Source of the DNA: a virus
IMG/VR virus record: IMGVR_UViG_3300017783_000169
Span: 1-26,570 of that record
DNA length: 26,570 bases
Reading direction: 5' to 3' (one strand)
This document shows positions 8,701 through 25,466 of this stretch, one piece after another. The stretch's first letter is position 1; each line of letters opens with the position of its first letter. The translations under genes and the position numbers were made by a program. Under the pieces are notes generated by a model that saw nothing but the letters and a program-made list of their open reading frames with translations, searched no databases and was not told the origin of the DNA.

Positions 8701-11700
8701 ATGAACATCTGGACGAAGAAGAACATTATTCTTGACTGTAAAGAGATCCGTATTGTTAGAAACTGTTTCAGGAACACCATTGTCAGATAGATTAAATCTT
8801 GTCCTAGCACCATTGAATACATTAAACTGATCTAACTCAGCGCCACGTTTTGTACTATCATTTGCAACATAAGATCCAACAAAGTCACTAATTGCACATG
8901 TAACTCCAGATACAGGAGGAGTGTTAAATGTGATTTGACTACCACTTACAGAATATTCATTTTCTGGAAAAATAATACCATTAACTGCAACCATTAAAGA
9001 GTTTTTACCATCAACAGGAACATAAGGATCTGTTGCATTGATGGTAAGATCAAATGTAGTTGTGGAACCATTAAACTGACTGGTGATGTCGTTAATAACC
9101 TCTACATGACTTGTCGAATACTCTGGATTGGAATACTTAAATCTAGAACCAAAACCATGTGCTGTAGTTCCATCGAGATATAAAGTGCCGTCAATAGTTT
9201 CCTTTTCTAATTCAAAGAAACCATTTGGTTTCTTAACATTATCTGATTGAATTTTAAGAGTTACATTCTTAGATTCGTTACAAATTAAATTTTTACCTTT
9301 AACCTGGTTTTTATATACACCAGCAACAGATAATTGTTCACATTCAACAGTTTCATCAATTTGCCAACCAAAAATTTCGGATGGATTGACTGATGTTGGA
9401 AATGTAATTGTAGAACCAGATACTGTAAAGTCAGTAATATGATGAGACTGATTAACACCCTCAAAGAAAATTAAAAGCTTACAATTATCAGAAGGAGTAA
9501 ACCCAAGATCAAAATCAGTACCAGCAGATCCAGTAAAAGTAATTGGACTAAGTTGTGGATGGTATAAAACAAAATTTGGTTTATCCTGAATGTCTACACC
9601 AAATTGTAATGTGCTATTATTAACTACAGTAAAGTTAGTATTTCTCTGAACAACGCCGTTTAGAGAAACAATGATCTTATCACCATCAGGAACAATATAT
9701 GGTGATGAATTAATACTTAAATTAATTTGTCGATTAGCATTAACTTGAGATGGTTCAATATTAGTATAGGGTGTCTGTAATCTATATTGAATAATTTCAT
9801 CTAATGGAAATACTGCGAAATTGGGAATAACATTAATACCTCTAACATCATAACTGACATCAGGAGTCTGTACAATACCATTAACAGATAATAATGTTTT
9901 ATCTAACGAAGATCTTGAAGAAGATGGTAATAGTCTTAGTATATTAATCTGAAATTCGTTAAGTTCAAATTCTTCTGTAAGTAAAGCAACTATAATATAA
10001 TTTGGACCCACTTCAATGACTCTTCCATACCGTTCGGATTGGGTGGTAAAAATTAAATCATTGATAACATATGGATTTGGATCTGATTCAATGTAAATAA
10101 TTTGTTTTTTACATTCTGGACTTTTTACATTTAAATCAAGAAGACTAAAAATAGTTGCTTTAAATGTAATAGCACTTCTTACAATATTTTGAGATCTACC
10201 AAGTAGTGATTTTCTACTATGAATTCTAGATTTACCAAACAATCTGAAACCAGACGGATGAGTATTTTCTAGAACCTCGGGTCTCCAATCTTTAGTATTT
10301 CTTTGGTTTGCTAGTGTATAAGACCAATCTTGATAATAGACATTATCTTCTAAACGTTGATAATCATCACTAATAAATCCTACTGTACCAATAAACTTAT
10401 CTTGAATATTACCATAAGCGTTTGCTTTGGTATATGCCCTTGCAGAATTTACATGTGTGATTATACCATAATCTCTACCATCAGAACTACGAAGTTGATC
10501 ATTGACTTTAAATTCACCAGAAGTTACCAACAGTTCAATAGTAGAAGATTTTACATCAACGTTTAAAATTTTTGCTGTTGTTCCCCCAGATACATTTACC
10601 GTATCTCCAATATTTAAATTTCTTCTACCAATAGAAACATCAAATGTTGCACCAGTTCCACCATTTTGACTAAACAATTCTAATGTTGGCACATCATCAA
10701 AACCACTACCGCCATCAACAACGGTGGCACTCATAACTTCACCAACACTAAAATCAAATTTAATATTAGTAGTATTTTGTAAGTTATTTACCTCATAGTA
10801 AGGATTTAAGAAATAGTTACTACCTCCATTTTTAACTTTAACACCAGTAATTTCAAAATTAGATTTCACCTTTACGGTGATGGGCAAATCCAAGTAGTTT
10901 CTGACATTTCTAGATCCATAAAATTGATCACCATAAGAAATATAATTAATATTTTTAATGGCGCCGATTGTAGTTGAGTTTGCAGTAAGAATTGCACCAG
11001 TACCAGAATCAGAAATTACACCAGATACCGCTGGCAGAGATCTATATCCTGCACCACCATCTGCGATATTGATAGTCTTAATTGGTCCAATAGCACCCTT
11101 AGATCTGATACTAAAATCTAATGTACTAATGTCTACACTAGAAATTGTTTCAGTAAGAGGAAGTGTAAATGTACTTGCAGTATTTTTCTTGACAATGTAT
11201 CTGGCAACTAATGGAGATTTAAGAACAGTTAACTGATAAATTGATGTTGCAGTATGTACAAAAATTCTAGATGGAATACTGGAAGGATCAATATCAAAAT
11301 AAGTACTTGTTAAAGTAATATCTTTTTGGTGATATGGATTAAAATTTAAACTATCAAAAGAAAGATTATATTTTCGCGAAGATCCAAATTGCAACCTATA
11401 TTTTTTATGCTTTTCTAATACTACAGAATATACTTGTTTAGATCCAATTGATTGAACAACAGTAGAAAGTAAATCTAAGTTGATTAAAGTATTTGTAGAT
11501 TCTTTAAACAGGTCAATAAGTACAACATCATTTTTTACAACATTATGAGGACCACTGAAAGTAAATGTAAGTTCTTTTTCATCATTATCTACTTGAGCAT
11601 TTGTAACAGGTGGAGATTCAACAGAACTTACATATGCAATAACACCAGCGCCGCCAGTATCTGAATTGTCAAATGTTATGTAATCTCCAGTTTTATAATT

Positions 11701-14700
11701 TTGACCTTTCTTCTCAATAAACACAGAATCAACAGATCCAACAGAAGTATAATTTGTCTTCAATAAAGTTGTATTGAGATTTTTAATTTCTTCTGGGAAG
11801 TAATCATTTTCAGAATCATTAACTCTGGTTAATTTATCTGGAATTTGATCATTAGTTCTATTCTCACCCAAGTTATAACAATCAGGATCAGAAAAATAAT
11901 TAGGTCCAATTACAAACGGATATGCATCGACCATAAAGTAACAATAAACACCATTAGGAAATTCTGGTGTTACACAAAATCTACCATTGAATTGATCTAG
12001 TGTACCATGTCCAGCTTTATACTCGTAATCTTCAATAAAAGAACCAAGTGGATAATCGACGACTGAAGGACCATTTAATCTAATGCCAACAAGTTTATAC
12101 GAGCTTGTTTGTTCAGAAATTCCAGATGTATTGTCTAATGCTGTTGTATATCCATATTTACAATAAATTGGGTGTCCATCGTAAGACCATCCAACAATTT
12201 TAGAATGTTGTGAAGAAGAAATACTATAAAATGTTTCAAAATTATCTGTATTGATTAACTGAAGATATTGGAATTTTAATCTAGATCTTGGGAAAGTGCT
12301 AGAAAGTACCTCAGAGATTTTAAGAGAACCTCTGATTCTATCATCTCCCTGTGAAATAGTTGCTTGAGTGCCTTTAATAAGAGCAGATTTTGATGAAGTA
12401 ATTTCCGACTTTGAAAGAAATACTACTTTAGTAGAAACATCTACACCACTAACAAAAGTTCCAGGTGACAATTGTGAGTGGTTAAACTCCATTCCAGTAA
12501 TAATATCAGTGGATGTAAAAACTTCTTTAAGTTTTACCGAATTAGCAGATGGTGTTTCTTCAATTGTATAGTTATTACCATCAGAATCATCAAAAACATA
12601 CCCACCATAATTATCAACACCATTGATAAATCTACTTACAATATTAAAAGTCCAGTTCTTTAAAGTAGAAGAAATTAATCCTGATTTAGAAATTTTACTA
12701 ATCGTAATATCTGGTGGTACAGAGTAACCACTACCCCCATTAACAATATTTACATCTACGATTTTACCACCAGAAATTTTAGCTTCTAATACAGCACCAG
12801 ATCCACCATCATTAGAAATAACAGTTAAAATAGGTTCAACAAAATAGTTTTTACCACTATTAAGAATTCGTACAGCAACTACCTTACCATTAGAAACAAT
12901 AGAAGAAATACTAAGATCAGAACCATCATCAATAACCACTGTTGGATTACTTACAAAAGAAGATCCAAGTTCAGTTGTCAAATCAATCACATTAGAAGAA
13001 CCATTACTAGAAATAATAGGTCCTGACATAACAATAGCATTATCAGTATTAGTACTATTAGTTAACGGTACATCATAAGTAGTAAACTTACCACCACCAC
13101 TAATTCTGATTGTAGGTGCCTCAACATAACCATAACCACCATCAACAATAATGATATTATCTATAGTTCCATTAGCGAATCCAACATCTAAAATTGCAGA
13201 CCTAAATCCAGCAGGATTTTGTTGAACATTATTAATTACTGGATTATTATTAATAACTTCTATAATTGGTTTATCGGAGAATCCTTGAAAATTGGGTAAA
13301 ATTGAAGATTCAAAAAGATTAAAATTAACTTTAGAGATAGAAGCTGCAATGTCAATAATGTTTGACGTAACAGTAATATCCGACGATTCACCACCATTTT
13401 TCTTGATGTATAGTATTGGTAAACCAGACTTATCAAAAGTTCCTAATGACGTATATACTACTTGATAATCACCACCATTATCAATAGTTAGTTTGTTGAC
13501 AGCACCATATCCTATATTATTACCTTTTGGTGATTGATATTGAATACCATCGATTGTAATACCAATTCCTCTCTTGGTTTCTACAGGTGTTAGTGCTTTA
13601 GAATTCCTAACAACATTATTGTTGATAATACTTGATGGGAAAGGAATTCTTTTTACAAGTTTTTGTAATTTATAGTTATTTCTATCAAGGTTGATTCCAC
13701 TTAAAGTCTGAAGCGAGATAGTAGAAACACCAGATCCACAATCAATAACAGTCAAAGTAGCGCCACTATTTTCTTGCAGTAGAGTGATAGTAGATCCACT
13801 AATTGTGTATGATGTAGTTGGTTGTTGAACAACACCATTTATTGCTACAATTACACTATCAGTAGTTGCAGTTGTATAATTAACACTCGAATTTTGTAAT
13901 GTATATGTAAGTGATGATGTAGTAGTAATAGAATCTAAAATATCCGCACCATCAATGGTATATACTAAAATATCATCAGTACCAACAGTTACTATTTGAC
14001 TGGTAAATGTAACAGTCTTACTAGAATCGTTGTATGTAAAAGAACTACCTACTTGCAGAACACCATTCAAGAATACAAAAATTTCGTCTCTAGTAAGAAC
14101 ATCACTAGTAGTTAATACAATATCTGAAGATTGAGCACCCTGAGTGACAGCTAATTTACTAATTTGATTTGCTGTACTAAAATATCTCGAATATACTTGT
14201 TCAGACGTTAATGGTACAGTGTTAAAGTTAATTACATTATCAACAAAGAAATAATCAGTATTAAATTCCTGTAGTACAGCATTTCTAAACACCAAAAGAC
14301 TTTCTTGATTGAGTGAGGAAATACCAGTTAAAAAACCATTTGTATATCCATCAAAAGTATTTTCAAGAATTCTAGTTTTGCCTGCAGTATATGGCGGTAT
14401 AGCTGAAGACGATGCATAAACATGACCAGAACCTGACGTAACAGAATCATAAATTGAAGTAATACCAACATAATCATTATCAGTATCTAATGTATGATTG
14501 CTATTTACGTTCCATGATGTATATTCAATACCACTAAAATCTTCATAATTTTTATCATCTAACGTATAAATCTGATCGCTAAATAATGCGCCACTATGAT
14601 CAATTGTTACTTTGTCAACAAGACCAATAACTCTTGCTGTTGCTTGTGAGGCAACCGCTGAACTATTTACTTTTGAAATATTTGGCAAAGAAAGAGTTAC

Positions 14701-16734
14701 TTTTTTACCATCAATTGATAAAATTTTTGAATCTGGTGCAATACCAGTAGCAACAACAGTTTGACCTACACTCAGGTTTCTTGCACTATCAACAACAATT
14801 TCTAACTCGCCCTGATTACCAGTCGCTTCAATTTCTGGAGTTCCAACAAAAACTGTACAAAAATAATCTACTGTACTATCACCAATATATTCCCACTCAA
14901 TCCTACCAATTCTCTTCTTTCCAAATACATGTGTTGGGGATTCAGACGCATCTGTAGTTCCCGTTGTTTTTGACACATATAAATTATTACCAAGATATCT
15001 TTCTTGACCCTCTTTTACAAATTCATTATTTAAATATTGTCTTCTTGTTTTATATCTACCAAAAGCAACTACCTCAGTTCCAACAATTTTAGAACCAGTA
15101 TCAGTTGTAGTACAACCTAAAAATTGATTTGCAGTTCTCTCATTATATTCTACTTTAAATCCATCAATGTATACAATACCTTTGATGACAGGAAAACCAG
15201 AAGCATCATCAACAGTAATTACAGTATCAGTATGATCAAACTGATGGGTTAGTTGCGTAGAAGCTGGTAAGTAGATAGAATTAAAATCATCATTGATGTC
15301 AATATCAATTTCATATACCGATCTACCAATATTATCAATTTTAGAAATAAAACTGGCTTCAGTAGAGTTTGACTTCACACCAAAAATTGAATCTTGTTTT
15401 TGAACAAGAGTTACATAATCAGGTGGAATAATTTTATCATTTACTACAGATTCAAGAAAACCATCAATTACTTCAATTTTAGCAATTTTTTTACCAACGT
15501 AACTAGAACTTGAAGGTCTAAAGAGATAATCTTTAGGAAACTCGATATCTGGATCTTGAGAAATAAATTCAAAAGATTTTACAAAACCTCGTGCAAGTTC
15601 ACCAGAAGATGAAACTAATTCGTCTGTATTAGTAAAGAAACCAACAATATCTTTAAGTGTTAATTCTCCAGTATTAAAATCCCAACTCTCTACAGTACCA
15701 GATCCGTTGCCAGACAAAGTGGTTACAATTTCTTCCTCGGCAAAATCTCGTTCTCTAACAAATGCAGTAATAGGTCCAGTATAATCTCTTCCAGCATCAG
15801 TAATTGTAATGCCCGTATAATTTGGGTCAATCGTAGATCCTTCTACAATTCCCCCCAGATTATCAATTGAAGTTACTGTTAAGACAGCAGTTTCTTGTAA
15901 ATTACTAATTCCCTGACCACTACCAAAAATTTCAATAACAGGTGGATTAATTAAAACACCATTACTTGTTCTATTATCATATCCAGAACCACCTTCAATT
16001 ACCTGTGCATTACCAATACCACCATCAAAATTAATAATTTTTAAAGTTGCATTAGTTCCTCTATTTTTAATAGTAAATTTAATCTTCTTATCGTTAAATA
16101 AAATTCTAAACAGAATTCTATGAGAATTTAAACTACCTTTAGATGAATAAAAAGATCTTACTTGTGATAGAAAACTAGAAATTTCTAGTTCTTCGACAAG
16201 ATTTTCAGGAATACCAACAGCAATTTCTGATTTAACTCTTCTTAAAAATTCGTTGGTATATGCAAAAGCTGTGTTGATTACTTGATCTTTTGCAAAATGA
16301 TTTTGATTATTTGAAGTGGATAAAGATACTTCAGACAAAGGAACACTAGTTAACAGTAGTGCAGAAGTTCCTCTAACACAATCTTTAAATTGTGTTTCTG
16401 TTTTTGATCCATAATAAATTATTTCACTTTCAATTTGGATGTAACCCTTATCTGGAAATCCCTTGGTGCTAGAAACAGTGATAGTTGTTACACTATCGTT
16501 AATATCCGAAGATAGTTCAGTTTTTTCTACTAATTCACTTTTCCTAAAGTGAGATATATTATAGTACTCAATTAAATTTTCAGCAATATCTAATGGCTGA
16601 TTTTTTAACTCTTGAGATTCGTAGTATGATTTTAAAAATGTAATGAACGTAGAGTTATCTTCCCTTACAAATTGAGGGAATTGATTTTCAATCAAATATG
16701 AAAGATCTACAGTTTTATCTACTAAGAATTTCAT
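5737..16734 (-). CDS. 7: Giant gp7-like baseplate wedge protein with YHYH-like domain and fibre-like repeats
   Basis: 3,665 aa from ATG at 16734, more than three times T4 gp7 (1,032 aa). I prefer this ATG to the GTG six bases upstream because it makes an ATGA overlap with the gp6 stop and has AGGTG just before it. Residues 1-60 (LIENQFPQFVREDN, FITFLKSYYE) are the usual start of wedge gp7 homologues. About eleven GGxGY-type repeats lie near residues 250, 315, 1200-1335, 1900-2010 and 3450-3615. A YHYH-like domain sits near residues 1505-1620 (GWSYDGHPIY, EDYEY, NGRFCVTPEFP). A phage-baseplate motif near 2145 reads YYQDWSYTLANQ, then HPSGFRLFG. Residues about 2280-3350 form an array of NGVxQ modules. 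Gene order between gp6 and gp8 supports the role of wedge initiator or scaffold; the repeat-rich extension looks fibre-like. The stop is TGA, with TAA four codons later. Confidence 0.8.
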   Translation of the reverse strand: MKFLVDKTVDLSYLIENQFPQFVREDNSTFITFLKSYYESQELKNQPLDIAENLIEYYNISHFRKSELVEKTELSSDINDSVTTITVSSTKGFPDKGYIQIESEIIYYGSKTETQFKDCVRGTSALLLTSVPLSEVSLSTSNNQNHFAKDQVINTAFAYTNEFLRRVKSEIAVGIPENLVEELEISSFLSQVRSFYSSKGSLNSHRILFRILFNDKKIKFTIKNRGTNATLKIINFDGGIGNAQVIEGGSGYDNRTSNGVLINPPVIEIFGSGQGISNLQETAVLTVTSIDNLGGIVEGSTIDPNYTGITITDAGRDYTGPITAFVRERDFAEEEIVTTLSGNGSGTVESWDFNTGELTLKDIVGFFTNTDELVSSSGELARGFVKSFEFISQDPDIEFPKDYLFRPSSSSYVGKKIAKIEVIDGFLESVVNDKIIPPDYVTLVQKQDSIFGVKSNSTEASFISKIDNIGRSVYEIDIDINDDFNSIYLPASTQLTHQFDHTDTVITVDDASGFPVIKGIVYIDGFKVEYNERTANQFLGCTTTDTGSKIVGTEVVAFGRYKTRRQYLNNEFVKEGQERYLGNNLYVSKTTGTTDASESPTHVFGKKRIGRIEWEYIGDSTVDYFCTVFVGTPEIEATGNQGELEIVVDSARNLSVGQTVVATGIAPDSKILSIDGKKVTLSLPNISKVNSSAVASQATARVIGLVDKVTIDHSGALFSDQIYTLDDKNYEDFSGIEYTSWNVNSNHTLDTDNDYVGITSIYDSVTSGSGHVYASSSAIPPYTAGKTRILENTFDGYTNGFLTGISSLNQESLLVFRNAVLQEFNTDYFFVDNVINFNTVPLTSEQVYSRYFSTANQISKLAVTQGAQSSDIVLTTSDVLTRDEIFVFLNGVLQVGSSFTYNDSSKTVTFTSQIVTVGTDDILVYTIDGADILDSITTTSSLTYTLQNSSVNYTTATTDSVIVAINGVVQQPTTSYTISGSTITLLQENSGATLTVIDCGSGVSTISLQTLSGINLDRNNYKLQKLVKRIPFPSSIINNNVVRNSKALTPVETKRGIGITIDGIQYQSPKGNNIGYGAVNKLTIDNGGDYQVVYTSLGTFDKSGLPILYIKKNGGESSDITVTSNIIDIAASISKVNFNLFESSILPNFQGFSDKPIIEVINNNPVINNVQQNPAGFRSAILDVGFANGTIDNIIIVDGGYGYVEAPTIRISGGGKFTTYDVPLTNSTNTDNAIVMSGPIISSNGSSNVIDLTTELGSSFVSNPTVVIDDGSDLSISSIVSNGKVVAVRILNSGKNYFVEPILTVISNDGGSGAVLEAKISGGKIVDVNIVNGGSGYSVPPDITISKISKSGLISSTLKNWTFNIVSRFINGVDNYGGYVFDDSDGNNYTIEETPSANSVKLKEVFTSTDIITGMEFNHSQLSPGTFVSGVDVSTKVVFLSKSEITSSKSALIKGTQATISQGDDRIRGSLKISEVLSSTFPRSRLKFQYLQLINTDNFETFYSISSSQHSKIVGWSYDGHPIYCKYGYTTALDNTSGISEQTSSYKLVGIRLNGPSVVDYPLGSFIEDYEYKAGHGTLDQFNGRFCVTPEFPNGVYCYFMVDAYPFVIGPNYFSDPDCYNLGENRTNDQIPDKLTRVNDSENDYFPEEIKNLNTTLLKTNYTSVGSVDSVFIEKKGQNYKTGDYITFDNSDTGGAGVIAYVSSVESPPVTNAQVDNDEKELTFTFSGPHNVVKNDVVLIDLFKESTNTLINLDLLSTVVQSIGSKQVYSVVLEKHKKYRLQFGSSRKYNLSFDSLNFNPYHQKDITLTSTYFDIDPSSIPSRIFVHTATSIYQLTVLKSPLVARYIVKKNTASTFTLPLTETISSVDISTLDFSIRSKGAIGPIKTINIADGGAGYRSLPAVSGVISDSGTGAILTANSTTIGAIKNINYISYGDQFYGSRNVRNYLDLPITVKVKSNFEITGVKVKNGGSNYFLNPYYEVNNLQNTTNIKFDFSVGEVMSATVVDGGSGFDDVPTLELFSQNGGTGATFDVSIGRRNLNIGDTVNVSGGTTAKILNVDVKSSTIELLVTSGEFKVNDQLRSSDGRDYGIITHVNSARAYTKANAYGNIQDKFIGTVGFISDDYQRLEDNVYYQDWSYTLANQRNTKDWRPEVLENTHPSGFRLFGKSRIHSRKSLLGRSQNIVRSAITFKATIFSLLDLNVKSPECKKQIIYIESDPNPYVINDLIFTTQSERYGRVIEVGPNYIIVALLTEEFELNEFQINILRLLPSSSRSSLDKTLLSVNGIVQTPDVSYDVRGINVIPNFAVFPLDEIIQYRLQTPYTNIEPSQVNANRQINLSINSSPYIVPDGDKIIVSLNGVVQRNTNFTVVNNSTLQFGVDIQDKPNFVLYHPQLSPITFTGSAGTDFDLGFTPSDNCKLLIFFEGVNQSHHITDFTVSGSTITFPTSVNPSEIFGWQIDETVECEQLSVAGVYKNQVKGKNLICNESKNVTLKIQSDNVKKPNGFFELEKETIDGTLYLDGTTAHGFGSRFKYSNPEYSTSHVEVINDITSQFNGSTTTFDLTINATDPYVPVDGKNSLMVAVNGIIFPENEYSVSGSQITFNTPPVSGVTCAISDFVGSYVANDSTKRGAELDQFNVFNGARTRFNLSDNGVPETVSNNTDLFTVKNNVLLRPDVHLNAVDSRPNVQLQVASANKVTYTDVPVSSDVVKLMSFNRQLVPNNHRNWVLDRNEYFDGVRTTFTLLHSYDYECDDLVNEDPRVESLVVVRNGVYQYPTTDYTLITPVDPHNINNFSGSYRIQFVDPPRSTEDVFIMFHVNDGNYFHDLTDGLSQTSSTVLSYTGNIPNASTKVPFVYVDGVYQDQNSYTLDTAAKTLTFTGTNLPTLATDQVEFHAKLGELRPQNVYGDILNANLVVLQRDNHNEVLVPTVNNIFTVTQRSGSTTISGTDVVNIVQRSSTLTIGTNHYRITNLNLNTLVMYDDPSNTFVAFDGVIQEPGVAYDHSGSGTASSTGIGNGEKYSSMSIPMGVGYLAAIDIVEFGSSNGRQRSVDEINQVYDGSRTKFRLLLDGIKYTNYTAFEDIVISKNNVILHPGVDYTLLNQGAISLRGCITFTVAPVDGDDIWMVGMHDNELITLTQVTSQVYNTSRALSADEQESIIFVQNDHAKYGLARGAEFTSTTQMNFDTTTTTGTPFAILTTTGKVLDYIHTPYNNSRTEFNLFLDEENFVPNGSFDNDAVVDPRNLFVIKNALVLTPVVDYNVTGTIDSRIIFTSAPAPTDNIFIKTHGLVKQLDTITGSGVTSYNLTDSSSAYYPNALIGRPREFENQIVAIKNGRVLDPLRDYYVHDNVVRFTTAPTSSDSIKLYDYMSKASDIAVESYSQQVEVGNSIFIPGESDRRQVTAVHSPTVMELNTPTGITSPSGLTATSTVSGGNLTSVNVTAGGTGYPRKMKFRTYGIGNSASANSFIDPIKGGEIKNTVVIDYKGHNLENTTLVPTYEAYVVRDTVLSSSDVHFGTKLTSDITTTSTTIPVAGTAMAPESDITVTVTSSTGSSAILQPFVVGGEIVSVDIENGGSGYDDLDFVLNVNNGGGSGAILEGVLNVSGTITSISVINPGVGYDSYRSFINNEVIEYTNHDSTNLKGVTRGMIGTTAATATTDTKVIFAG
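6700..9900 (-). repeat. Array of protein-level NGVxQ modules inside the gp7-like gene
   Basis: The encoded protein repeats the pattern 'VxxNGVxQxPxxxYxxxGxxIxFxxxPxxxDxI' about eleven times here (for example SVNGIVQTPD, SLNGVVQRNT, VRNGVYQYPT, YVDGVYQDQN, FDGVIQEPG, SKNNVILHPG, IKNALVLTPV, IKNGRVLDPL). In several modules it follows 'FNGxRTxFxL' (FNGARTRFNL, FDGVRTTFTL, YDGSRTKFRL, YNNSRTEFNL). Three further copies lie near 13,820-14,300. The DNA copies are diverged, so this is an old protein repeat, not a recent tandem duplication. Confidence 0.75.
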
Positions 16735-18737
16735 GAGCACCTATTAGGATCTTGTTCTGGCGTGAAGTCGTTAATTGTATTAATATTATTTGGATCGTCG
16801 ATCTCAGCAGTAGGAATAGTATCACTTTCAGTTATTACTCTTGGATCACCAGTTGCATCACCTACTGGTGGAACAGTTATTTCTGTAAATGGTCCAAGAT
16901 CTGTAGATGTTTCGTCACCTGGAGTATCAATAATAGTAATTGATTCTACTTTAATATCAGGATAAGTTTCCCCATCAACATCTAAATTTGGTGTTGTTGG
17001 TACTGCACAAATATTTATTGGAGTATCGTCACAGACGGCTACAGAAAATGTAATTTCACCAGTTTCAAAATCAATTGTTCCTACACTTCTAATTATAGTA
17101 CCAGTATCATCAATCAAATAAACATTTTCATCTGGAGTACATCCAGCTTCAGCATATGATTTAACACCCAAAAAGACAGGATTTGCAATTCCTGGAGAAC
17201 AAAAGAAGTCGGAGACAACAGCATATTTACCATCTAGTTTATTTTCAATAGCACCAAAGAAAGATCTTTCATATTTTGTCTCAATTTCATTATTCTTTCG
17301 GAGAGTTAATTCTATACAAGTTTTTACCTTGATATTACTATATGTAATTGCACTATCAAGATTCTGAATATTGGAAATAATATTTGACTGCGAATATACG
17401 CCACCAAAGTTTTTAAATGAGTCAGAATTTTCAAAATCTACAATTAAATCAGTAATCAATCTAGAAAATTGTGTTGGAGTTTTTCTAGTTTTATTTTGAT
17501 CATATACAATAACTGGACTAAGATTAATAGTATATCTTTTAGCATCTCTAATTACTGGAGTAATAGATCCCACAATATAACTTTTTAAATCTGTAATAAT
17601 TTTTGCTTTTTCACTAGCACTTATAACTTCACCTACTTTTGGTTTAATTGTAATAAAAACTTTACCATATTCTGGGGTTTTAAGTGTTTCACCACCAACA
17701 ACCTTAACGAGATCGGCATTTCCATATAATTGCATAATTAGTGATTCATAATCACTAATTGTTACTGCTCTACCTTGAGCTGCATAATATCTGGGTGCTC
17801 TATACTTAATAGAGGAAATACTTTCAAACTCAGAACCGCCATCAGTAAATTCTGTGTTTAATGAAAAGATAATATTACTTAAATTAACTTTTTGAATTGA
17901 ACCACCAGCTGAGTAATCAATAGAACCTACAAATGTAAATGCAGACTCTTTTACATTGTTTAATTCTCCACCAGCTGTTGCAATATACTCAATAATTACA
18001 ATTTCACCATTTTGTAATTTTCTACCAATTACATCATCACCGAAAATAATTTCATATTTTTGATCCTGAATTTCTTCAACAAAAAATACGGTATCTGATT
18101 GAGATACATCGACTACTGTATTTTTTCGTTGATATTGAATAGAAGATGAAGCAGTAGAATCTGATTTTACAAATACTTTTACACTACTTGCATCAATAAA
18201 ATTATTTGGAATGATAAAACGTTGATTTTCGTTAGATGTATCTACAGTATATGTAATATTAAAAGATGTACCTTCAAAAATATCTACATCTCTAAAAGTA
18301 AGTTCATTAACTCCTGCAGGAACTGTTAAATTAATAGGTTCCCTTGCAATAAAAGTATAATTCTTCTTTTGATACTTTGTAGAAAGAATAGGACCAGACT
18401 TTAATGAAATTTTATCAGTATTTAATGAATTAAGTCCTGATACCGTAATATCAATACTAGTTTTAGCTGATGTATAAGATCCTGGAGCATATCCTAGTTT
18501 TTTAGCATGAGATACAATGTTATCTCTCAATACAGCTGTATCAAGATTCAACTCATTGGATGCCATGTTGATATTATAAGATGTATACAAAGTATTGTAT
18601 GCAAGAATATCAACCAACATTGAAAGGTTGGAACCATCGAAATCATAGTCGGTAAATTCCGACTTAGTTTTGATGTAATTTTTAATTGAAGCTCTGAGTT
18701 GATTAAACTCTAGTGCTGATACTGAAGGTAATTCCAT
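16731..18737 (-). CDS. 6: Baseplate wedge protein gp6 (baseplate J-like)
   Basis: 668 aa, close to T4 gp6 (660 aa). The N-terminus has the gp6 hallmark: LRASIKNYIKTKSEFTDYDF, then SMLVDILAYNTLYTSYN and LGYAPGSYTSA (residues 12-95). Mid-protein motifs typical of the family are IFGDDVIGRKLQNGEIV with IEYIATAGGELNN near residues 225-260, and KYRAPRYYAAQGRAVTISDY with LYGNADLVKVVGG near 305-350. The last 150 residues form an acidic, proline-rich tail. gp6 forms the dimeric ring linking the six wedges of the baseplate. The ATG directly abuts the gp25 stop (TAAATG), and the TGA stop overlaps the next ATG, so the three wedge genes are probably translationally coupled. Confidence 0.92.
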   Translation of the reverse strand: MELPSVSALEFNQLRASIKNYIKTKSEFTDYDFDGSNLSMLVDILAYNTLYTSYNINMASNELNLDTAVLRDNIVSHAKKLGYAPGSYTSAKTSIDITVSGLNSLNTDKISLKSGPILSTKYQKKNYTFIAREPINLTVPAGVNELTFRDVDIFEGTSFNITYTVDTSNENQRFIIPNNFIDASSVKVFVKSDSTASSSIQYQRKNTVVDVSQSDTVFFVEEIQDQKYEIIFGDDVIGRKLQNGEIVIIEYIATAGGELNNVKESAFTFVGSIDYSAGGSIQKVNLSNIIFSLNTEFTDGGSEFESISSIKYRAPRYYAAQGRAVTISDYESLIMQLYGNADLVKVVGGETLKTPEYGKVFITIKPKVGEVISASEKAKIITDLKSYIVGSITPVIRDAKRYTINLSPVIVYDQNKTRKTPTQFSRLITDLIVDFENSDSFKNFGGVYSQSNIISNIQNLDSAITYSNIKVKTCIELTLRKNNEIETKYERSFFGAIENKLDGKYAVVSDFFCSPGIANPVFLGVKSYAEAGCTPDENVYLIDDTGTIIRSVGTIDFETGEITFSVAVCDDTPINICAVPTTPNLDVDGETYPDIKVESITIIDTPGDETSTDLGPFTEITVPPVGDATGDPRVITESDTIPTAEIDDPNNINTINDFTPEQDPNRCS

Positions 18738-19187
18738 TTAACTTTCTCTAACTAAAATAAAGTCTACGGCCTGTACTGCTTCTGGGATGCCCACAATGAA
18801 GTATTCAATAAAGCATTCAAATCTATTTAAGTCTGGATTAGAAGTAGCACTAATATTAGATAAGATTATTCTGGGTTCATTTTCCTTCAGAACAGTCTCA
18901 ATTTCTTCAATTAGTGCATTTTCAGAAAAACCAGTAGAAAGTTCAAACAAATACGATGTCGTTGAGGTTCCAAGGTTTGGTTGAAAGAAACGTTCACCAA
19001 TTTGCGTCAAAACAAGGTTTTTTACAGCCTGTTTGATGGCTTCTTCATTTTTTAGAACTACGATATCTTTCGTAATTGGATTCATAGAGAAATTAAAGCT
19101 AATATCTTTAAAAGCTCTAGAAGTTTTACCCAAAGAGTTATCTACTATTTGGGTAGGTGCTGTTGATCTGGAAACGCTAAAAGACAA
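18738..19187 (-). CDS. 25: Baseplate wedge protein gp25 (lysozyme-like fold family), TTG start
   Basis: 149 aa; T4 gp25 is 132 aa. The family signature is clear at residues 56-80: NLVLTQIGERFFQPNLGTST followed by YLFE, which matches the GER-F-P-G pattern of gp25/TssE proteins. gp25 sits in the inner wedge core with gp6 and nucleates sheath assembly. The frame has no ATG near its start. An in-frame TAG lies six codons upstream, the first plausible start is TTG at 19187, and the next Met is residue 36, which would remove the conserved DNSLGKTSRAFKDI segment. No Shine-Dalgarno sequence precedes the TTG. A nearby ATG five bases upstream is out of frame. Function is sure; the start is not. Confidence 0.9.
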   Translation of the reverse strand: MSFSVSRSTAPTQIVDNSLGKTSRAFKDISFNFSMNPITKDIVVLKNEEAIKQAVKNLVLTQIGERFFQPNLGTSTTSYLFELSTGFSENALIEEIETVLKENEPRIILSNISATSNPDLNRFECFIEYFIVGIPEAVQAVDFILVRES

Positions 19188-19371: not shown

Positions 19372-20019
19372 TTATTTATTTTCGTATTCCTCATCTTCTG
19401 TTTTGTAACTCCATTTTTCTGTATGACCAACAGACCATTTAGGTGTGTTTTCCACAGTAAAATTTTGTGTGCAAACATTAAAGTCTGGTACTTTAACCTC
19501 TAGAGGAATAAGACTTTGATCTGACCACACCACCCTATTATTAGGTTGAGCTGCAAACTGACCATTACTCATTTTAATCACATTAAATGACTTATGTTCT
19601 GGATCATGTTCAGAATAATTTTGATTTAATGCAGACCTGTCACGGTGGGCCGAGTCGATGGTAAATATATAATCTCCTTCGTGCATTTTCTTATCCTTCC
19701 CGAAAAAAGAGCAGCTTCCGAGAAGAGGCTTTCTGATGACAGTGATATCGTAGTCAAAACAATCCCATATTTGCAAATGATCCAAAGGCAAGAGCTCACC
19801 GTGATCAGTTTTCCACAAAAATGCGCTGATAGGAAGTTTATCATACAAGGCTCCATATTCTGTTAATAGGGTCTCGAAATAAAGTGCTTTACCTTCTACA
19901 GATTTTACTGAAATCCATATTCCAGGAGTAAATTCACCATTTCCTTTCTGTAAGTCGTACAAATACTCTTTTCTTACAAAAACTGGTGTTGGAGGTAAAT
20001 TATGAACTAGGAATGACAT
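19372..20019 (-). CDS. Conserved hypothetical protein of T4-like marine phages, 215 aa
   Basis: I know similar proteins in cyanophage baseplate regions, always without assigned function. It starts MSFLVHNLPPTPVFVRKEYL and has a beta-rich middle with FLWKTDHGELLPLDHLQIWD (near residue 65) and a GDYIFTIDSAHRD stretch (near 116). The C-terminus is charged and tyrosine-rich (DEEYENK). It shows no signal peptide, membrane segment or catalytic motif that I can name. The ATG lies inside the end of the 70-aa gene (20-base overlap) and lacks a good ribosome site, so translation is probably coupled to that gene. It does not resemble T4 gp53, the protein I first considered for this position. Confidence 0.75.
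   Translation of the reverse strand: MSFLVHNLPPTPVFVRKEYLYDLQKGNGEFTPGIWISVKSVEGKALYFETLLTEYGALYDKLPISAFLWKTDHGELLPLDHLQIWDCFDYDITVIRKPLLGSCSFFGKDKKMHEGDYIFTIDSAHRDRSALNQNYSEHDPEHKSFNVIKMSNGQFAAQPNNRVVWSDQSLIPLEVKVPDFNVCTQNFTVENTPKWSVGHTEKWSYKTEDEEYENK
19374..19381 (-). promoter_or_regulatory. Late-promoter-like box AATAAATA before the 44-aa gene and gp25
   Basis: The minus strand reads AATAAATA, seven of eight bases of the T4 late core. It overlaps the stop of the 215-aa gene and lies about 20 bases before the ATG of the 44-aa gene, so it could start a late transcript for that gene, gp25, gp6 and gp7-like. Confidence 0.45.
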
Positions 20020-20212: not shown

Positions 20213-20379
20213 CGTAATGCGTTTGTAAGACCTGTTGTAAGACGATTTACATTGAGAGCCATGTATCGATACCCAGTACCAACATACAGTTGTCCTAGGA
20301 CCACTGAGACGGTGGCTAGACCCCAAAAAATGTAGTAGAACCTAGATTTGACTTGATAATTCGATTTTTTGTTTTTCAC
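20209..20379 (-). CDS. Small membrane protein, 56 aa, GTG start
   Basis: This gene is easy to miss because it starts at GTG and overlaps both neighbours. A strong ribosome site (CGGAG, seven bases before GTG) lies within the end of the 67-aa gene. The protein starts with a basic segment (KNKKSNYQVKSR), followed by a hydrophobic stretch at residues 14-36 (YYIFWGLATVSVVLGQLYVG), then YRYMALNVNRLTTGLTNALR. This is a single membrane helix with a positively charged N-terminal side, so N-in topology is expected. Its TGA overlaps the ATG of the 70-aa gene (ATGA). I recall similar short membrane proteins with FWG and SVVLGQLYVG in cyanophages; no function is known. It overlaps the 67-aa gene by 38 bases. 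Confidence 0.75.
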   Translation of the reverse strand: MKNKKSNYQVKSRFYYIFWGLATVSVVLGQLYVGTGYRYMALNVNRLTTGLTNALR

Positions 20380-20545
20380 CAGAATACTCCGTATTTAATA
20401 TATGTTCAACTGTAGTAGCTACATCATTCATTGCATCTCTTAGTACAGGTCTTTGTCCTGATTCTTGGATCAAATCGTTCATGTCATCTGTTAGAGACCA
20501 TCTCCATAGATTTAAATCTCCAGAATACCACAGTTGTATTTTCAT
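20342..20545 (-). CDS. Small conserved cyanophage protein, 67 aa
   Basis: The N-terminus MKIQLWYSGDLNLWRWSLTD and the following MNDLIQESGQRPVLRDAMND resemble a short protein family I know from cyanophages, without assigned function. It is mixed alpha/beta, with a tryptophan-rich first strand pair and an amphipathic helix around residues 35-52. There is no membrane segment. The ATG overlaps the stop of the 47-aa gene by one base (TAATG) and follows an AAGGT site, so the two are probably translated together. Confidence 0.7.
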   Translation of the reverse strand: MKIQLWYSGDLNLWRWSLTDDMNDLIQESGQRPVLRDAMNDVATTVEHILNTEYSGEKQKIELSSQI

Positions 20546-20688
20546 TACTTACCTTGACCCCTGTAACGTTTGCGTGCTTTATTACGAGATGTAGAAGCGT
20601 ATTTGGTATGCTTACCAGTCCCTTGACGTGTTTTTTTGGGAATAGCTTCAATATTAGTGTTTCCGCCAAAACTAGCCCTACGTGCCAT
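20545..20688 (-). CDS. Small, strongly basic conserved phage protein, 47 aa
   Basis: The start at the ATG at 20688 gives MARRASFGGNTNIEAIPKKT, then RQGTGKHTKY and a C-terminus rich in Arg/Lys (RNKARKRYRGQGK). A longer frame reaching 20736 includes promoter DNA, so I reject that start. Very short basic proteins with this layout (ARR, FGGNTN, PKKTRQG, KRYRGQG) are common in cyanophage late regions. A nucleic-acid or virion-internal role is possible but unproven. It is the first gene after the minus-strand sigma-70 promoter; the predicted leader is about 20 bases, with no ribosome site at normal spacing. Confidence 0.75.
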   Translation of the reverse strand: MARRASFGGNTNIEAIPKKTRQGTGKHTKYASTSRNKARKRYRGQGK

Positions 20689-20715: not shown

Positions 20716-20744
20716 ATTATACCACAGGCTTGACAAGATGTCAA
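20716..20744 (-). promoter_or_regulatory. Consensus sigma-70 promoter, minus strand
   Basis: On the minus strand TTGACA (20744-20739) and TATAAT (20721-20716) are separated by exactly 17 bases, a perfect consensus match. It points at the 47-aa gene, whose ATG is about 20 bases from the expected start point. A host-type promoter here suggests that the small-gene cluster can be transcribed early, apart from the late promoters. Confidence 0.8.
20730..20744. repeat. Perfect inverted repeat formed by the two -35 boxes
   Basis: TTGACA-AGA-TGTCAA is a perfect 6-3-6 palindrome holding the -35 boxes of both opposed promoters. It could also serve as an operator for a dimeric repressor or form a small hairpin in RNA. 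Confidence 0.85.
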
Positions 20745-20758
20745 AATACTTCTATAAT
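20730..20758 (+). promoter_or_regulatory. Consensus sigma-70 promoter, plus strand, antisense to the PAAR-like gene
   Basis: On the plus strand TTGACA (20730-20735) and TATAAT (20753-20758) are again separated by exactly 17 bases. The expected start near 20765 would give RNA antisense to the PAAR-like gene and possibly the 1,364-aa gene. I see no plus-strand gene downstream with a ribosome site. Confidence 0.65.
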
Positions 20759-20780
20759 AACACTGTCAGGGTTGAAAAGA

Positions 20781-21110
20781 TCAAGCATATAGAATTTTGG
20801 GAGTGGGAGTTGCTGTATTAAGTCTTGGAACTGATGGTGGATTTGGATCTCCAATATGAGATGACATACGTCCACAGATAAACACCTTACTGATTCCTAC
20901 AGCGACTCTAGGACAGACGCAAGGACTACAACCTTTACCACAACAGTCAATTCCAGGAGCAGGTACTAGAACCTGTCCTGTGGTCAATTCAGGAAGTCCA
21001 CAGAGAAGTTCTTTTTGTACCACTGGTGTCACAACAAATGGGAAACACTTGCAACATCCATAAACAGATGGTCCATCGATACCACCGAATGATTGTACTG
21101 GTCTTACCAT
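20781..21110 (-). CDS. Cysteine-rich PAAR-like baseplate spike-tip protein (putative)
   Basis: 109 aa with ten cysteines in short clusters (GCCKC near residue 19, DCCGKGCSPCVC near 55-66, FICG near 77). The C-terminal segment has VFICGRMSSHIGDPNPPSVP, which fits the 'V-x-I-x-G-x-x-x-S/A-x-x-GDP' core of PAAR-type spike tips such as T4 gp5.4; the rest is proline- and glycine-rich. PAAR proteins form a metal-bound cone on the central spike. Here only one histidine is present, so metal binding would rely on cysteines, unlike the usual His-rich site. ATG follows GGGAG and is two bases after the stop of the 1,364-aa gene. The family call is moderate; a small metal-binding structural protein of another family is possible. 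Confidence 0.55.
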   Translation of the reverse strand: MVRPVQSFGGIDGPSVYGCCKCFPFVVTPVVQKELLCGLPELTTGQVLVPAPGIDCCGKGCSPCVCPRVAVGISKVFICGRMSSHIGDPNPPSVPRLNTATPTPKILYA

Positions 21111-21112
21111 TG

Positions 21113-24100
21113 CTAGCTCCCGTAATTAACGTTAGAAGAAGAAGATCCACTAGATGTAGATTCAGATGATGAATCTGTACTGTATGCCCAATACTGTTGT
21201 ACTGAATATCCCAGTTGATAACTATTTACCATACCACCATTCTTTTTGAATGGTTCTAGTGAGGTTTGGAACACATATGTTGTATTAAATTGTGATCTTT
21301 TAATTCCAGTAAAACTTGTCGATGTTTTACCAGCATAGTAAATAATTTCTTCACCATCATAATAATAATGTTCTCTAGAATTTTTTAATTCATTTACATC
21401 TCCTTCTTTACCTAATTGTAAATAAATTTCGGTCTTTTTAATCCACTTAGGAATCATTAAGTATCCAGATGATAAAAACTTAGAGGTATCTTCTACTAAA
21501 ATAGTGTCATCAGTTGGATTTAAAGTTTTAGTTAATTTAGCTGTAATTGGTGCAAGTTGAATTGGATTGCCTTTAGAGAAAGAAGATTTGGCAATATTTT
21601 CTGAGGTAGTTACCAAATCAAATTCATACTCTTTAACAAAAGATGATTGTACTTCAAAATTATTACCTCTCCATGATTTATCAGGATAAGTCTCTCCCAT
21701 ACTTTCAAGTCCAATTTCTTGAATATATTGAACACCAGTTTGTGGATCTGTATAGTAAACAGGATTTTGAGTTACAGAAAAAGTACCAAATACTACACCA
21801 GTCATTCCTTGCGGCGAATCATTAAATCTGAGTGTAAAGAAAAATGGTACAAATGTCCCTGCTCCTGTTGTACTTGTTAAACTTGTAGTTGGTGCAGGTG
21901 TCTGAAAAACTTTAAACGTATTCGCAGAAGTTTTATATGCACTATAAACAGTATTAAGTGATAAAGGTGATGGTGCAGTTGTGGTAAATGTAACTTTAAA
22001 ATATGATGCAAATGCTGATAAATCAGAACCATTTAGTTGAAGTTCACCATTTCGTCTATTCACAACATCAACTGTTGGTCCCGATGATGGCACAATTGCA
22101 GTGTTATATAATGTACCTCCATTATTCAATGAAACAATATATTGTGGAGAACCAGAGCTGTTTTCACCTTTTAAAATATCAAAAGAAGCACCAGATCCAC
22201 TCACACCATCTGTATTTGTACCAGAAATACTTGTATAAAGAGTTTCTGGTACACCACTAATCGTAAAATTAGATATACCACCTGCAGGATTAATCTCTGT
22301 TACTGTAATCAAAAGATCATTTGTAGTATTGACACCACCCAGGTTCGATCCTAATACTGTAATAACATCATTTAGTTGATATCCTACTCCAACTGTGCTC
22401 TCGTCCTGTATAAGCGCTGTGTAAACATCATCAGAGACACTATTAGTATCCGACCATTCAACATTTACCGAGAACGTGGCAGCAGTGTTTAATGGTGTTT
22501 GTCCTGAGTATACGGTGGAATCTGCAGAAGTTCCAAATAAACTGAATGTTGTAATATTACCAGAACCATCAACTGCAGTTGCAGTTAAGATCAGATCATT
22601 TGTTCCGTCCACACCACCTAAAGTAGAACCAAGAAAAGTGAAGTCTTGACCTACAGTAAATCCACCAGCACCACTACTTACAAGAGTTGCACTATAAGAT
22701 CCGTTAACACCACCACCAGTAATGTTAAATGATGGTCTAGTTTGCGTAGTTGAAAGATTTCCTGACGCAACATATGACATTTTTGGTGTAGATGAACTAA
22801 AAACATCAAATCCGTTTGATAAAACCGCACCAGTAGAGTCATCTACATCTACTGCTAAGATATAAAGATCATTATCTGGTGTTGTACCACCTAATTGAGT
22901 GCCTAAAATGCGGATTTCTGTCTCGCCAGAGGTTTCGGAACCAATATCAGGAGTACCCAAGATGTATCTTGGAGTAACTTCGATGTTAATCGTCTCTCTA
23001 AGTGAGTTTTTTCCGTATTCTTGATAAGATTTGTCGTCATCAAGTGAAATATTATCCGCAATAAACGTAATATTATCCTGAGGAACTGGTAAATCACGAT
23101 AAGCATTCTTAACTAAGAGTGTAGATGACTCATTTTGACCATCAATCGTTGAAATTACAGCAACACCATCAACATTTTCGATTGTATTGGGTAATTCAGG
23201 TAACATATCTGTTAAATCATCAGGAACTTCCGAGAATTTATTCAAAATATTGTTAATAAGTTGCGCTGATGCGGTATCTTGCTTTAATTCTAGATTTATA
23301 TCCGATTTTTTATCTTTCTTCTTACTGTTTTGTTTGTTTTTATTGGATTCAGTCTCATTTGTTGATTCCAATTGAGATACTGTTTGATTTGTAATTACAG
23401 TATTCTCTTTTTCAAGGATTTTTGAGATATCTTCAATACTTGTTCCTCCTGAAACAAGTTCATCAATTCTATTTTCAATATTAGTTAATTTAAATTCAGA
23501 TTCATTGCTTACAAATTTATTCACATTATCAGCATTACCAATATTATCTGGAATAATAACTGATGGTGTTAAATAAGGATCACATGTTTCAGATACAGTG
23601 GGTGCTTCTAAATTATATTCCCTCAAATCAGTAATCTCAGATATTCCTGGAAAAGAACTCTTTAATTTACTAATGATATCAGGTACAATTGGTTGGTTTT
23701 TATTGAAAACAGGTTCATATCCAATGTCTTTATGTGTACTTACAATGATTCCTACCATTGCAGCTCTATCAATAATACCGTATCCTGCAATTGCAGTGAT
23801 TGATGCACTACTAATTGAACCTGTATAACTTGCATTCTTAGCAAATGTACCCCCAGATACTACAGTTGATCCTGTATTCTCTACAATTTTAAAATCAATT
23901 CTTACTTTTCCTTTACCGCCATTAAATGTTTTCTGAAATGATGTGCCAGTACTTGGTAAACTACCAGTAAATGATTCGATATACCACTTAGAATCATATT
24001 CACCACCATCATCGATGGGTTCTGCTTTCATGACAAGTGATCCACCATTGAAATTTACATTGATAGTTCGAGTCTCACCACTATTAAATACTGCATTACC

Positions 24101-25207
24101 ACCTTCATTATCAATCTTTGTACTTGTCCATGTTCCAGCAGACGTTGTAGTCGTCTGATAGTCCATATAATGAATGCCTGGTCCCTCAATCTTAAATGCA
24201 ATATTCTTACTGTTGCTTATAGCATTACTAAATTCACAATAACAATAATTTGTATTCGGTACTTGATTTATTTCTGCATCGGAAATAATAATGTTCCTAA
24301 TATTAACGATATTTGTAGTATCTAATCCGTCAATACCTGATGGAAAACTTAATTTGATAGTTCTTGATACACTATTAATTGAACTCACAGTTGTGCCAGT
24401 TGGAATCTTAGTATCGCCAAATCCAATTACATTATCACCTACACTGATACCATCAATACTATTCACTTTTAATATGTTATCACCAATGACTCTATGAACT
24501 TGTCTTCGGTCTGCTTTGGTCTCAATGAAATTTGCTACTTTTGTAACAGTATGTCCATTAATAATATCGCCAACTTGTACTACAGTACGAGTATCATTAT
24601 TATAAACAAATACTAAACTTGCTTTATGTGTCGCAGTCCAATATACATACGAATTCTCAGTCGCATTTGGTAAACCACTTACATTAATATCAACTTTACC
24701 TAAACTAAAATTATTTGTAACTTTTACTTTCTTGAAACATGCTCCTACAGCCGCTGTTACACTCGGTGCTGTAGCTGCACCTGGTCTCGTGGTTGGTGAT
24801 CCAGTCGCTGTTTGATATATTGGTGTATACTTAACAACAATTTCTTTCGTTGATGTATGACTTGTTGGATATTCCCATAGATTATAAAAATATCCCTCGT
24901 CTGTACCTTTATCAGTTCTACAATAATTCTCAAATATAGGTTGTCCTGTATTAATATCATACTGTTGAAATCTAGGATCACTACTATTATCCCATTTCTC
25001 ACGAATGACACCATTCGTTAATGTATGAGTAATCTCATTATATACTGTATCTACATATTCAACTTCTGTTGTGTTAAATGTTCGAGTATAACTGCCAGCT
25101 TGACTACCACTAGTCTGTGTACTCGTACTAGGACATTCAATATCTACAGTCTTCTTGACTTCCTGATACGTGGGTTGACAACTAAACCCTGAATTGACAG
25201 TTCCCAT
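21113..25207 (-). CDS. Large repeat-containing virion structural protein, 1,364 aa
   Basis: I do not recognise a named T4 counterpart. The N-terminal 150 residues are Thr/Ser-rich with tyrosines and cysteines. Residues about 240-310 hold a 'VGDNVIGFGDTKIPTGTTVSSI' type beta module. A polar linker with a very basic core (SKKKDKKSD, near residue 630) and coiled-coil-like flanks separates two halves. Three tandem units of about 92 residues follow near 780, 870 and 962, each with LGG-x4-NDL (TPDNDLYILAVD, DGTNDLILTATA, NTTNDLLITVTE). Near the C-terminus is a motif shared with the gp7-like protein (EEIIYYAGKTSTSFTGIKRS), then a Ser-rich tail (SSSESTSSGSSSS). The gene is coupled to the PAAR-like gene. 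Tail-hub, spike or fibre protein is the best inference. It probably uses the promoter at 25245-25273. Confidence 0.65.
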   Translation of the reverse strand: MGTVNSGFSCQPTYQEVKKTVDIECPSTSTQTSGSQAGSYTRTFNTTEVEYVDTVYNEITHTLTNGVIREKWDNSSDPRFQQYDINTGQPIFENYCRTDKGTDEGYFYNLWEYPTSHTSTKEIVVKYTPIYQTATGSPTTRPGAATAPSVTAAVGACFKKVKVTNNFSLGKVDINVSGLPNATENSYVYWTATHKASLVFVYNNDTRTVVQVGDIINGHTVTKVANFIETKADRRQVHRVIGDNILKVNSIDGISVGDNVIGFGDTKIPTGTTVSSINSVSRTIKLSFPSGIDGLDTTNIVNIRNIIISDAEINQVPNTNYCYCEFSNAISNSKNIAFKIEGPGIHYMDYQTTTTSAGTWTSTKIDNEGGNAVFNSGETRTINVNFNGGSLVMKAEPIDDGGEYDSKWYIESFTGSLPSTGTSFQKTFNGGKGKVRIDFKIVENTGSTVVSGGTFAKNASYTGSISSASITAIAGYGIIDRAAMVGIIVSTHKDIGYEPVFNKNQPIVPDIISKLKSSFPGISEITDLREYNLEAPTVSETCDPYLTPSVIIPDNIGNADNVNKFVSNESEFKLTNIENRIDELVSGGTSIEDISKILEKENTVITNQTVSQLESTNETESNKNKQNSKKKDKKSDINLELKQDTASAQLINNILNKFSEVPDDLTDMLPELPNTIENVDGVAVISTIDGQNESSTLLVKNAYRDLPVPQDNITFIADNISLDDDKSYQEYGKNSLRETINIEVTPRYILGTPDIGSETSGETEIRILGTQLGGTTPDNDLYILAVDVDDSTGAVLSNGFDVFSSSTPKMSYVASGNLSTTQTRPSFNITGGGVNGSYSATLVSSGAGGFTVGQDFTFLGSTLGGVDGTNDLILTATAVDGSGNITTFSLFGTSADSTVYSGQTPLNTAATFSVNVEWSDTNSVSDDVYTALIQDESTVGVGYQLNDVITVLGSNLGGVNTTNDLLITVTEINPAGGISNFTISGVPETLYTSISGTNTDGVSGSGASFDILKGENSSGSPQYIVSLNNGGTLYNTAIVPSSGPTVDVVNRRNGELQLNGSDLSAFASYFKVTFTTTAPSPLSLNTVYSAYKTSANTFKVFQTPAPTTSLTSTTGAGTFVPFFFTLRFNDSPQGMTGVVFGTFSVTQNPVYYTDPQTGVQYIQEIGLESMGETYPDKSWRGNNFEVQSSFVKEYEFDLVTTSENIAKSSFSKGNPIQLAPITAKLTKTLNPTDDTILVEDTSKFLSSGYLMIPKWIKKTEIYLQLGKEGDVNELKNSREHYYYDGEEIIYYAGKTSTSFTGIKRSQFNTTYVFQTSLEPFKKNGGMVNSYQLGYSVQQYWAYSTDSSSESTSSGSSSSNVNYGS

Positions 25208-25283: not shown

Positions 25284-25466
25284 TTAATCCTCTCCTACCT
25301 TATGTAGGCGAAGGCCTGGAAGTCCATTATAATCATGATACTCCCATTCCAGTACATCGCCGTCCTTCCAATCTAACTCCTCTAGAATATGTTCTGGAAT
25401 GGTTACCATATACTCTTCGTTTACTTCATCATAAAGTACTTCTGTAGATGTTTCAAAATTTGACAT
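25284..25466 (-). CDS. AbrB/SpoVT-like small transcriptional regulator, 60 aa
   Basis: 60 aa with a swapped-hairpin AbrB-like core at residues about 13-50: NEEYMVTIPEHILEELDWKD followed by GDVLEWEY. The pattern 'hxVTIPxxhxxxLxWxxGDxhxWxh' is that of AbrB, MazE-antitoxin and SpoVT-type DNA-binding proteins, which bind as dimers. Similar short proteins occur in cyanophages. No toxin-like partner gene is next to it, so an antitoxin role is not supported. The protein is acidic overall. ATG lacks a good ribosome site, and a TATAAAAA box lies about 20 bases upstream. Its position before a promoter with a palindrome suggests local regulation, but the target is inferred. Confidence 0.65.
   Translation of the reverse strand: MSNFETSTEVLYDEVNEEYMVTIPEHILEELDWKDGDVLEWEYHDYNGLPGLRLHKVGED

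Follow-up and report, generated by a model that had tools for sequence, protein, structure and literature searches.

Crossed consensus sigma-70 promoters in a cyanophage-related genome fragment resemble a promoter module found upstream of the late sigma factor gene gp55

Introduction

Overlapping divergent promoters are already known in bacteria, and bidirectional promoters with a common -10 element are well described. In E. coli, the bidirectional promoters have a symmetrical -10 in common and start sites 7-25 bp apart (PMC10268837). At basal strength, competition is often absent between overlapping promoters that occur naturally in E. coli, but improving one -35 element greatly cut the opposite transcript, indicating that strong overlapping promoters do compete (Warman et al., PMC12825309). 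In T4-like cyanophages, sigma-70-like promoters have been listed upstream of early genes (PMC2984593; PMC3037559). These phages lack MotA and AsiA, and the timing of their early, middle and late transcription has been described as unclear (PMC2984593).

Here we discuss a pair of consensus promoters on opposite strands of a 26,570-base IMG/VR fragment (the window, meaning this whole stretch of DNA), the structural-gene region of a T4-like phage with relatives among marine cyanophages. The plus-strand arm of the pair belongs to a wider family of promoters in these phages, and several models may explain why it is conserved, as we discuss below.

Architecture of the promoter pair

Direct reading and a pattern scan both find a sigma-70 promoter of the form TTGACA-N17-TATAAT on each strand of positions 20716-20758, each matching the consensus at 12 of 12 positions. 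The plus-strand ("antisense") promoter spans 20730-20758, with TTGACA at 20730-20735 and TATAAT at 20753-20758, and its start is predicted at ~20765 from the position of the -10. The minus-strand ("sense") promoter spans 20716-20744, with TTGACA at 20744-20739 and TATAAT at 20721-20716; it has an extended -10 (TGG-TATAAT), and its start, inferred in the same way, is predicted at ~20709. The two interlocked -35 boxes make up the palindrome TTGACA-AGA-TGTCAA (20730-20744). The geometry is thus crossed, not back to back: each -35 lies within the spacer of the opposite promoter, and each predicted transcript begins past the opposite promoter. Since the arms overlap, the size of a polymerase footprint makes it unlikely that both are bound at once.

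These two are the only perfect promoters with spacers of 15-19 bases in the 26.6 kb window. Dinucleotide shuffles of the window contained 0.11 perfect promoters on average and never reached two. An earlier note on this DNA had described two consensus promoters with a palindromic -35 core and had called a chance origin very unlikely; both statements are borne out.

Genes on either side of the pair

The minus arm points to the start codon (20688-20686) of a gene for a 47-residue basic protein, phrog_516, of unknown function (20545-20688, minus strand). This family occurs in 449 phage records, nearly all of them cyanophages, and its matches in the annotated phage collection are confined to Synechococcus and Prochlorococcus phages and to records named Cyanophage or Marine. 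The cluster's second small gene, phrog_2818 (20342-20545, minus), is also of unknown function, and a further member, phrog_3704 (19372-20019, minus), is labelled ferredoxin/auxiliary metabolic. The baseplate genes gp25 (18738-19187) and gp6 (16731-18737) lie on the same strand. Very long open frames flank the baseplate genes, one of 3,667 residues (5737-16740, minus) and one of 1,364 residues (21113-25207, minus), the latter matching just one PHROG family, phrog_26996, over a short stretch. Farther along, a 60-residue protein (25284-25466, minus) matches the Pfam MazE antitoxin family (PF04014), with no toxin gene identified nearby.

The plus arm faces the other way. A gap of 16 bases separates its predicted start from the stop codon of a minus-strand gene of 109 codons (20781-21110), and the transcript would enter the 3' end of that gene in antisense. 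The 109-residue protein has no Pfam or PHROG match, and a search of the annotated phage collection with it gave no matches; its PAAR label rests on the gene at the same position in P-RSM4 and S-SM1, which is annotated as a PAAR-motif protein. An antisense protein-coding gene was considered and rejected, as the plus strand over the neighbouring gene holds no open reading frame of at least 50 codons. The plus strand showed no intrinsic terminator, and its RNA folds no better than shuffled versions, so that nothing points to a discrete small RNA. The T4 late promoter sequence TATAAATA occurs once in the window, below chance expectation, so that the layout of late genes cannot be read from late promoters.

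Conservation in close relatives

A search with the 109-residue protein found nine loci. Both arms are exact in all six close relatives (protein 89-94% identical), which were located through this neighbouring protein and not through the promoter, and whose spacers and central bases differ from those of the window. In three remoter loci (72%), all that is seen is TTATAAT, which resembles a -10, in sense orientation. Loss of one arm, which the earlier note had named beforehand as evidence against its reading, was seen in none of the six, and the orientation that it had given, with one arm toward the small-gene cluster and the other antisense to the PAAR-position gene, holds for arms that are conserved.

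The central three bases of the palindrome differ in every relative lineage, and the outer spacer of the minus arm, GCCTGTGG, is identical across all close relatives. In the adjacent genes, 43 of 88 four-fold degenerate sites (49%) are invariant across four lineages; at this rate, the neutral chance that all 12 box positions belonging to the antisense promoter only would be invariant is ~2e-4. Box conservation across 15 module copies gathered by promoter pattern was set aside as circular, and loci found by protein were used instead.

Among 80 phrog_516 loci the module is present in one, that of the window clade only, which points to a recent local arrival. Most simply, it would have arrived by copying of a module of the type found at gp55. 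Neither gp55 nor a second module was recovered in the larger contigs of the window clade, which are fragments, and copying within one genome is for this reason inferred. A weaker match to the promoter element (L562) occurs in a relative whose gp6 is ~50% identical; it lies at G021 37400-37450 (minus), ~8.6 kb upstream of gp6 and with no obvious gene start nearby.

The same module upstream of gp55

A scan that allowed TANAAT in both -10 elements returned 28 stretches, most with common flanks but a different gene after them. In most, that gene encodes the late sigma factor gp55, as judged by matches to annotated gp55 genes. Named cyanophages bear this out. In ACG-2014b the arrangement ahead of gp55 is CTCTGAACCCTTACAGTGTTATTCTA-N8-TTGACAAACTTGTCAAGTGTGTTATAAT; in Syn9 it has the interlocked form CAACCCTGACAGTGTTATTCTA...TTGACAAGTTTGTCAAGTATGCTATAAT, which is near the CAACCCTGACAGTGTTATTATA...TTGACATCTTGTCAAGCCTGTGGTATAAT of the window. 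The Syn9 element spans 123683-123735 of NC_008296.2, and its antisense -10 reads TAGAAT. Blastn with the gp55-upstream stretch gave 487 hits, spread over 284 records that are nearly all cyanophages. The window copy itself is not upstream of gp55: its neighbours are the PAAR-position gene and phrog_516, in a fragment without gp55.

By protein, 80 gp55 loci were fetched, 79 of which were usable for a scan of the 115 bases upstream. An antisense sigma-70 promoter matching at 10 or more of 12 positions is present in 78 of the 79, and 53 of these match at 11 or more. Among 157 control stretches taken from inside the upstream gene, 5 reached the lower threshold, as did 4.7% of shuffles. After similar upstream regions were dropped, the promoter was present in 66 of 67 loci; as gp55 loci are related, there were fewer independent events than these counts suggest.

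R1, a sequence model of the plus arm, matched 72 of the 80 gp55 loci, always in antisense. Of these 72, 71 have TTGACA as their -35 and 67 have a 17-base spacer. The promoter directed toward gp55 is more variable. A good sense promoter is present in 62 loci, and in 40 of them it shares the antisense -35, taken on the opposite strand (TTGTCAA); a few of the remainder are interlocked as in the window, and others stand clear or abut. The antisense arm thus persists at gp55 while the sense promoter changes, at offsets from -16 to +9. The gene upstream of gp55 is annotated as methylamine utilization (T4-GC 139) in the majority of the named phages inspected, and antisense RNA from this site would cover its 3' end.

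The antisense arm as a repeated promoter element

Conservation of the antisense arm extends past its -10. The element, a family defined here, has the consensus TTGACA-N17-TANAAT followed by AACNNTGTNAGGGTT, and the window copy conforms to it; the stretch past the plus-strand -10 (20759-20778), AACACTGTCAGGGTTGAAAA, matches the element consensus AACNNTGTNAGGGTTCAGAG. A matrix trained on the gp55-site antisense promoters of named cyanophages only, with the window excluded, ranks window position 20728 (plus) first of 53,040 positions (44.9 bits; next best, -1.7). Scored by the part past the -10 alone, this site again comes out on top of the 53,040 positions (26.1 vs 10.2 bits).

R1 was built from 25 sequences including the window, whose own R1 score is not independent. 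In whole-genome searches it found matches in 18 of 20 named cyanophages, and also in Syn9 and S-PM2. There are one to five matches per genome, not all strong, and usually two to four copies of the element. Two sites recur, one at ~13 kb, before the CpeT-region genes, and one at ~37-53 kb, where a small gene (T4-GC 1416 in S-SM1) follows. At both, the element faces a small gene, whose start codon follows ~50-100 bases after the -35, and no partner promoter lies behind it (best reverse scores, 7-9 of 12). This co-directional placement elsewhere suggests that the bases past the -10 are part of a promoter class. The repeated element likely marks a set of co-regulated genes. The earlier note missed both the likeness of the window unit to the gp55 promoter region, of which it is apparently a copy, and the repeated promoter family to which its plus arm belongs.

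Palindromic promoters across IMG/VR

The pattern TTGACA-N3-TGTCAA-N8-TATAAT was found in at least 120 stretches in IMG/VR, vs 39 for a non-palindromic control of the same composition. Among the matches listed, a mirrored -10 of at least 5 of 6 at exactly 17 bases accompanies 11 of 69 distinct palindromic promoters, a number to be read against a control rate of ~1.3% per position and with related loci, and some loci in both orientations, included in the 69; most palindromic promoters among these matches lack it. Those without a mirrored -10 are, IMG/VR-wide, at least three times commoner than the composition-matched control. Many of them may come from unrelated phages and carry operators.

Perfect mirror pairs of the same geometry occur in three other viral contigs (L072, 80-122; L086, 3770-3812; L099, 8447-8489), in each case between divergently oriented genes. 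L072 and L086 share gene content, and a ferredoxin-NADP reductase-like gene lies near two of the three pairs. These pairs are apparently independent of the cyanophage module, and the crossed geometry has thus arisen more than once.

Models for the function of the pair

We propose that the pair is a crossed divergent sigma-70 unit, copied from a gp55-type module, whose arms are mutually exclusive and whose antisense arm restrains or insulates the sense genes; on the sequence evidence, we give this model about an even chance of being correct. Host RNA polymerase with its primary sigma factor would occupy one arm at a time because of the overlap. The minus arm would start transcription of the small-gene cluster (phrog_516 and the genes that follow) inside the late structural region, and the plus arm would start RNA antisense to the upstream gene. 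Antisense initiation would restrain the sense arm and block read-through from the upstream late gene, and the sense genes would thus be expressed in a limited, early-timed manner. Placed ahead of gp55, this arrangement would set a limit on the late sigma factor or determine its timing. The broader proposal, that marine T4-like cyanophages control gp55 by an antisense promoter that competes with the gp55 promoter or insulates it, and that the window lineage has reused the module for a small-gene cluster, is more tentative, and we hold it to be somewhat less probable.

Both arms could also be active with the antisense arm having no regulatory role at this locus, having come along when a strong promoter was copied. 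The apparently recent arrival of the module, confined to one clade among the phrog_516 loci, is in keeping with this, as is the fact that the element works co-directionally at other sites. The antisense boxes, however, have stayed perfect in four diverged lineages, and at gp55 the antisense promoter persists where the sense promoter has changed, and we regard a passenger arm as unlikely, if a serious contender. A palindrome that serves as an operator is more doubtful still. Here a dimer of a phage or host repressor or activator would bind TTGACA-N3-TGTCAA and govern both promoters, and the earlier note had suggested a repressor of this kind. The excess of such palindromic promoters in viral contigs, most of them without a mirrored -10, would fit an operator. 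In homologous modules, however, the half-sites are 3, 4 or 5 bases apart, or the -35 boxes are merged or separate, while the boxes and the antisense promoter are kept, a variation that a dimer operator should not tolerate; the outer spacer and the centre also show no dyad conservation outside the hexamers. An operator was therefore rejected as the main explanation and is improbable; the palindrome looks like a by-product of crossed -35 boxes rather than a repressor site.

The upstream half might instead be a binding site for the sense promoter, either UP-like or for an activator, that resembles a promoter by accident. It does lie at ~-40 to -70 of the sense promoter, in the territory of activators and of the alpha C-terminal domain, and its conservation extends past the -10. 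Such a site is hard to reconcile with the shifting distance to the sense promoter at gp55, and elsewhere small genes follow the element in the direction in which it points and no partner promoter accompanies it, which makes the idea highly improbable. We give still less credence to a small RNA, acting in trans or in cis, with a functional 5' end (GUNAGGGUUCAGAG). Most sites do conserve the first ~14 bases of the transcript, and cyanophage S-PM2 has a known antisense RNA (CfrI, cited in PMC2984593), but conservation across loci stops at ~+14, neither a terminator nor a fold signal accompanies it, and Rfam 15 at gathering score gave no match in the window or in four gp55 loci.

Comparison with known systems

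The arms of the pair are like the sigma-70-like early promoters of T4-like cyanophages, which have the form TTGACA-N17-TATAAT and are used by unmodified host polymerase (PMC2984593; PMC3037559). We found no mention in these two papers of a repeated element with bases past the -10 or of an antisense copy at gp55. More widely, the literature covered, which excludes the Syn9 transcriptome (Doron 2016), yielded no description of the cyanophage element, of its antisense position at gp55 or of crossed consensus pairs with interlocked -35 boxes. Early promoters of T4 itself are very strong, with UP, -35, TGn and -10 elements and extra consensus outside the hexamers, and the minus arm likewise has TGn; the passages of the review covered here describe no crossed antisense partner (PMC2988021). 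Antisense transcription in a T4-like cyanophage has a precedent in CfrI of S-PM2, an RNA of ~225 nt, although this lies at psbA and has no link to crossed promoters (PMC2984593). A promoter that is conserved in antisense and interlocks with that of the late sigma factor gene, as in the laboratory phage Syn9, is a concrete and testable candidate for the control of transcription timing.

The pair is also like the bidirectional promoters of Warman, Grainger and colleagues (PMC12825309; PMC10268837), which fire in both directions, exclude a second polymerase and often yield one antisense RNA. Mutually exclusive binding is likewise expected at the window pair from its overlap. Unlike those promoters, the window pair has separate -10 elements, 31 bases apart (20721 to 20753), and it is the -35 boxes that interlock; its predicted starts are ~56 bp apart, and both arms are of consensus strength. 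Because overlapping E. coli promoters compete when strong, and both window arms match the consensus, we propose by analogy that the two arms may compete, although the natural, weak E. coli pairs did not and so speak against this step. As natural overlapping divergent promoters that come in three architectures, with shared, interlocked or separate -35 boxes, the cyanophage modules offer a set for studies of polymerase competition.
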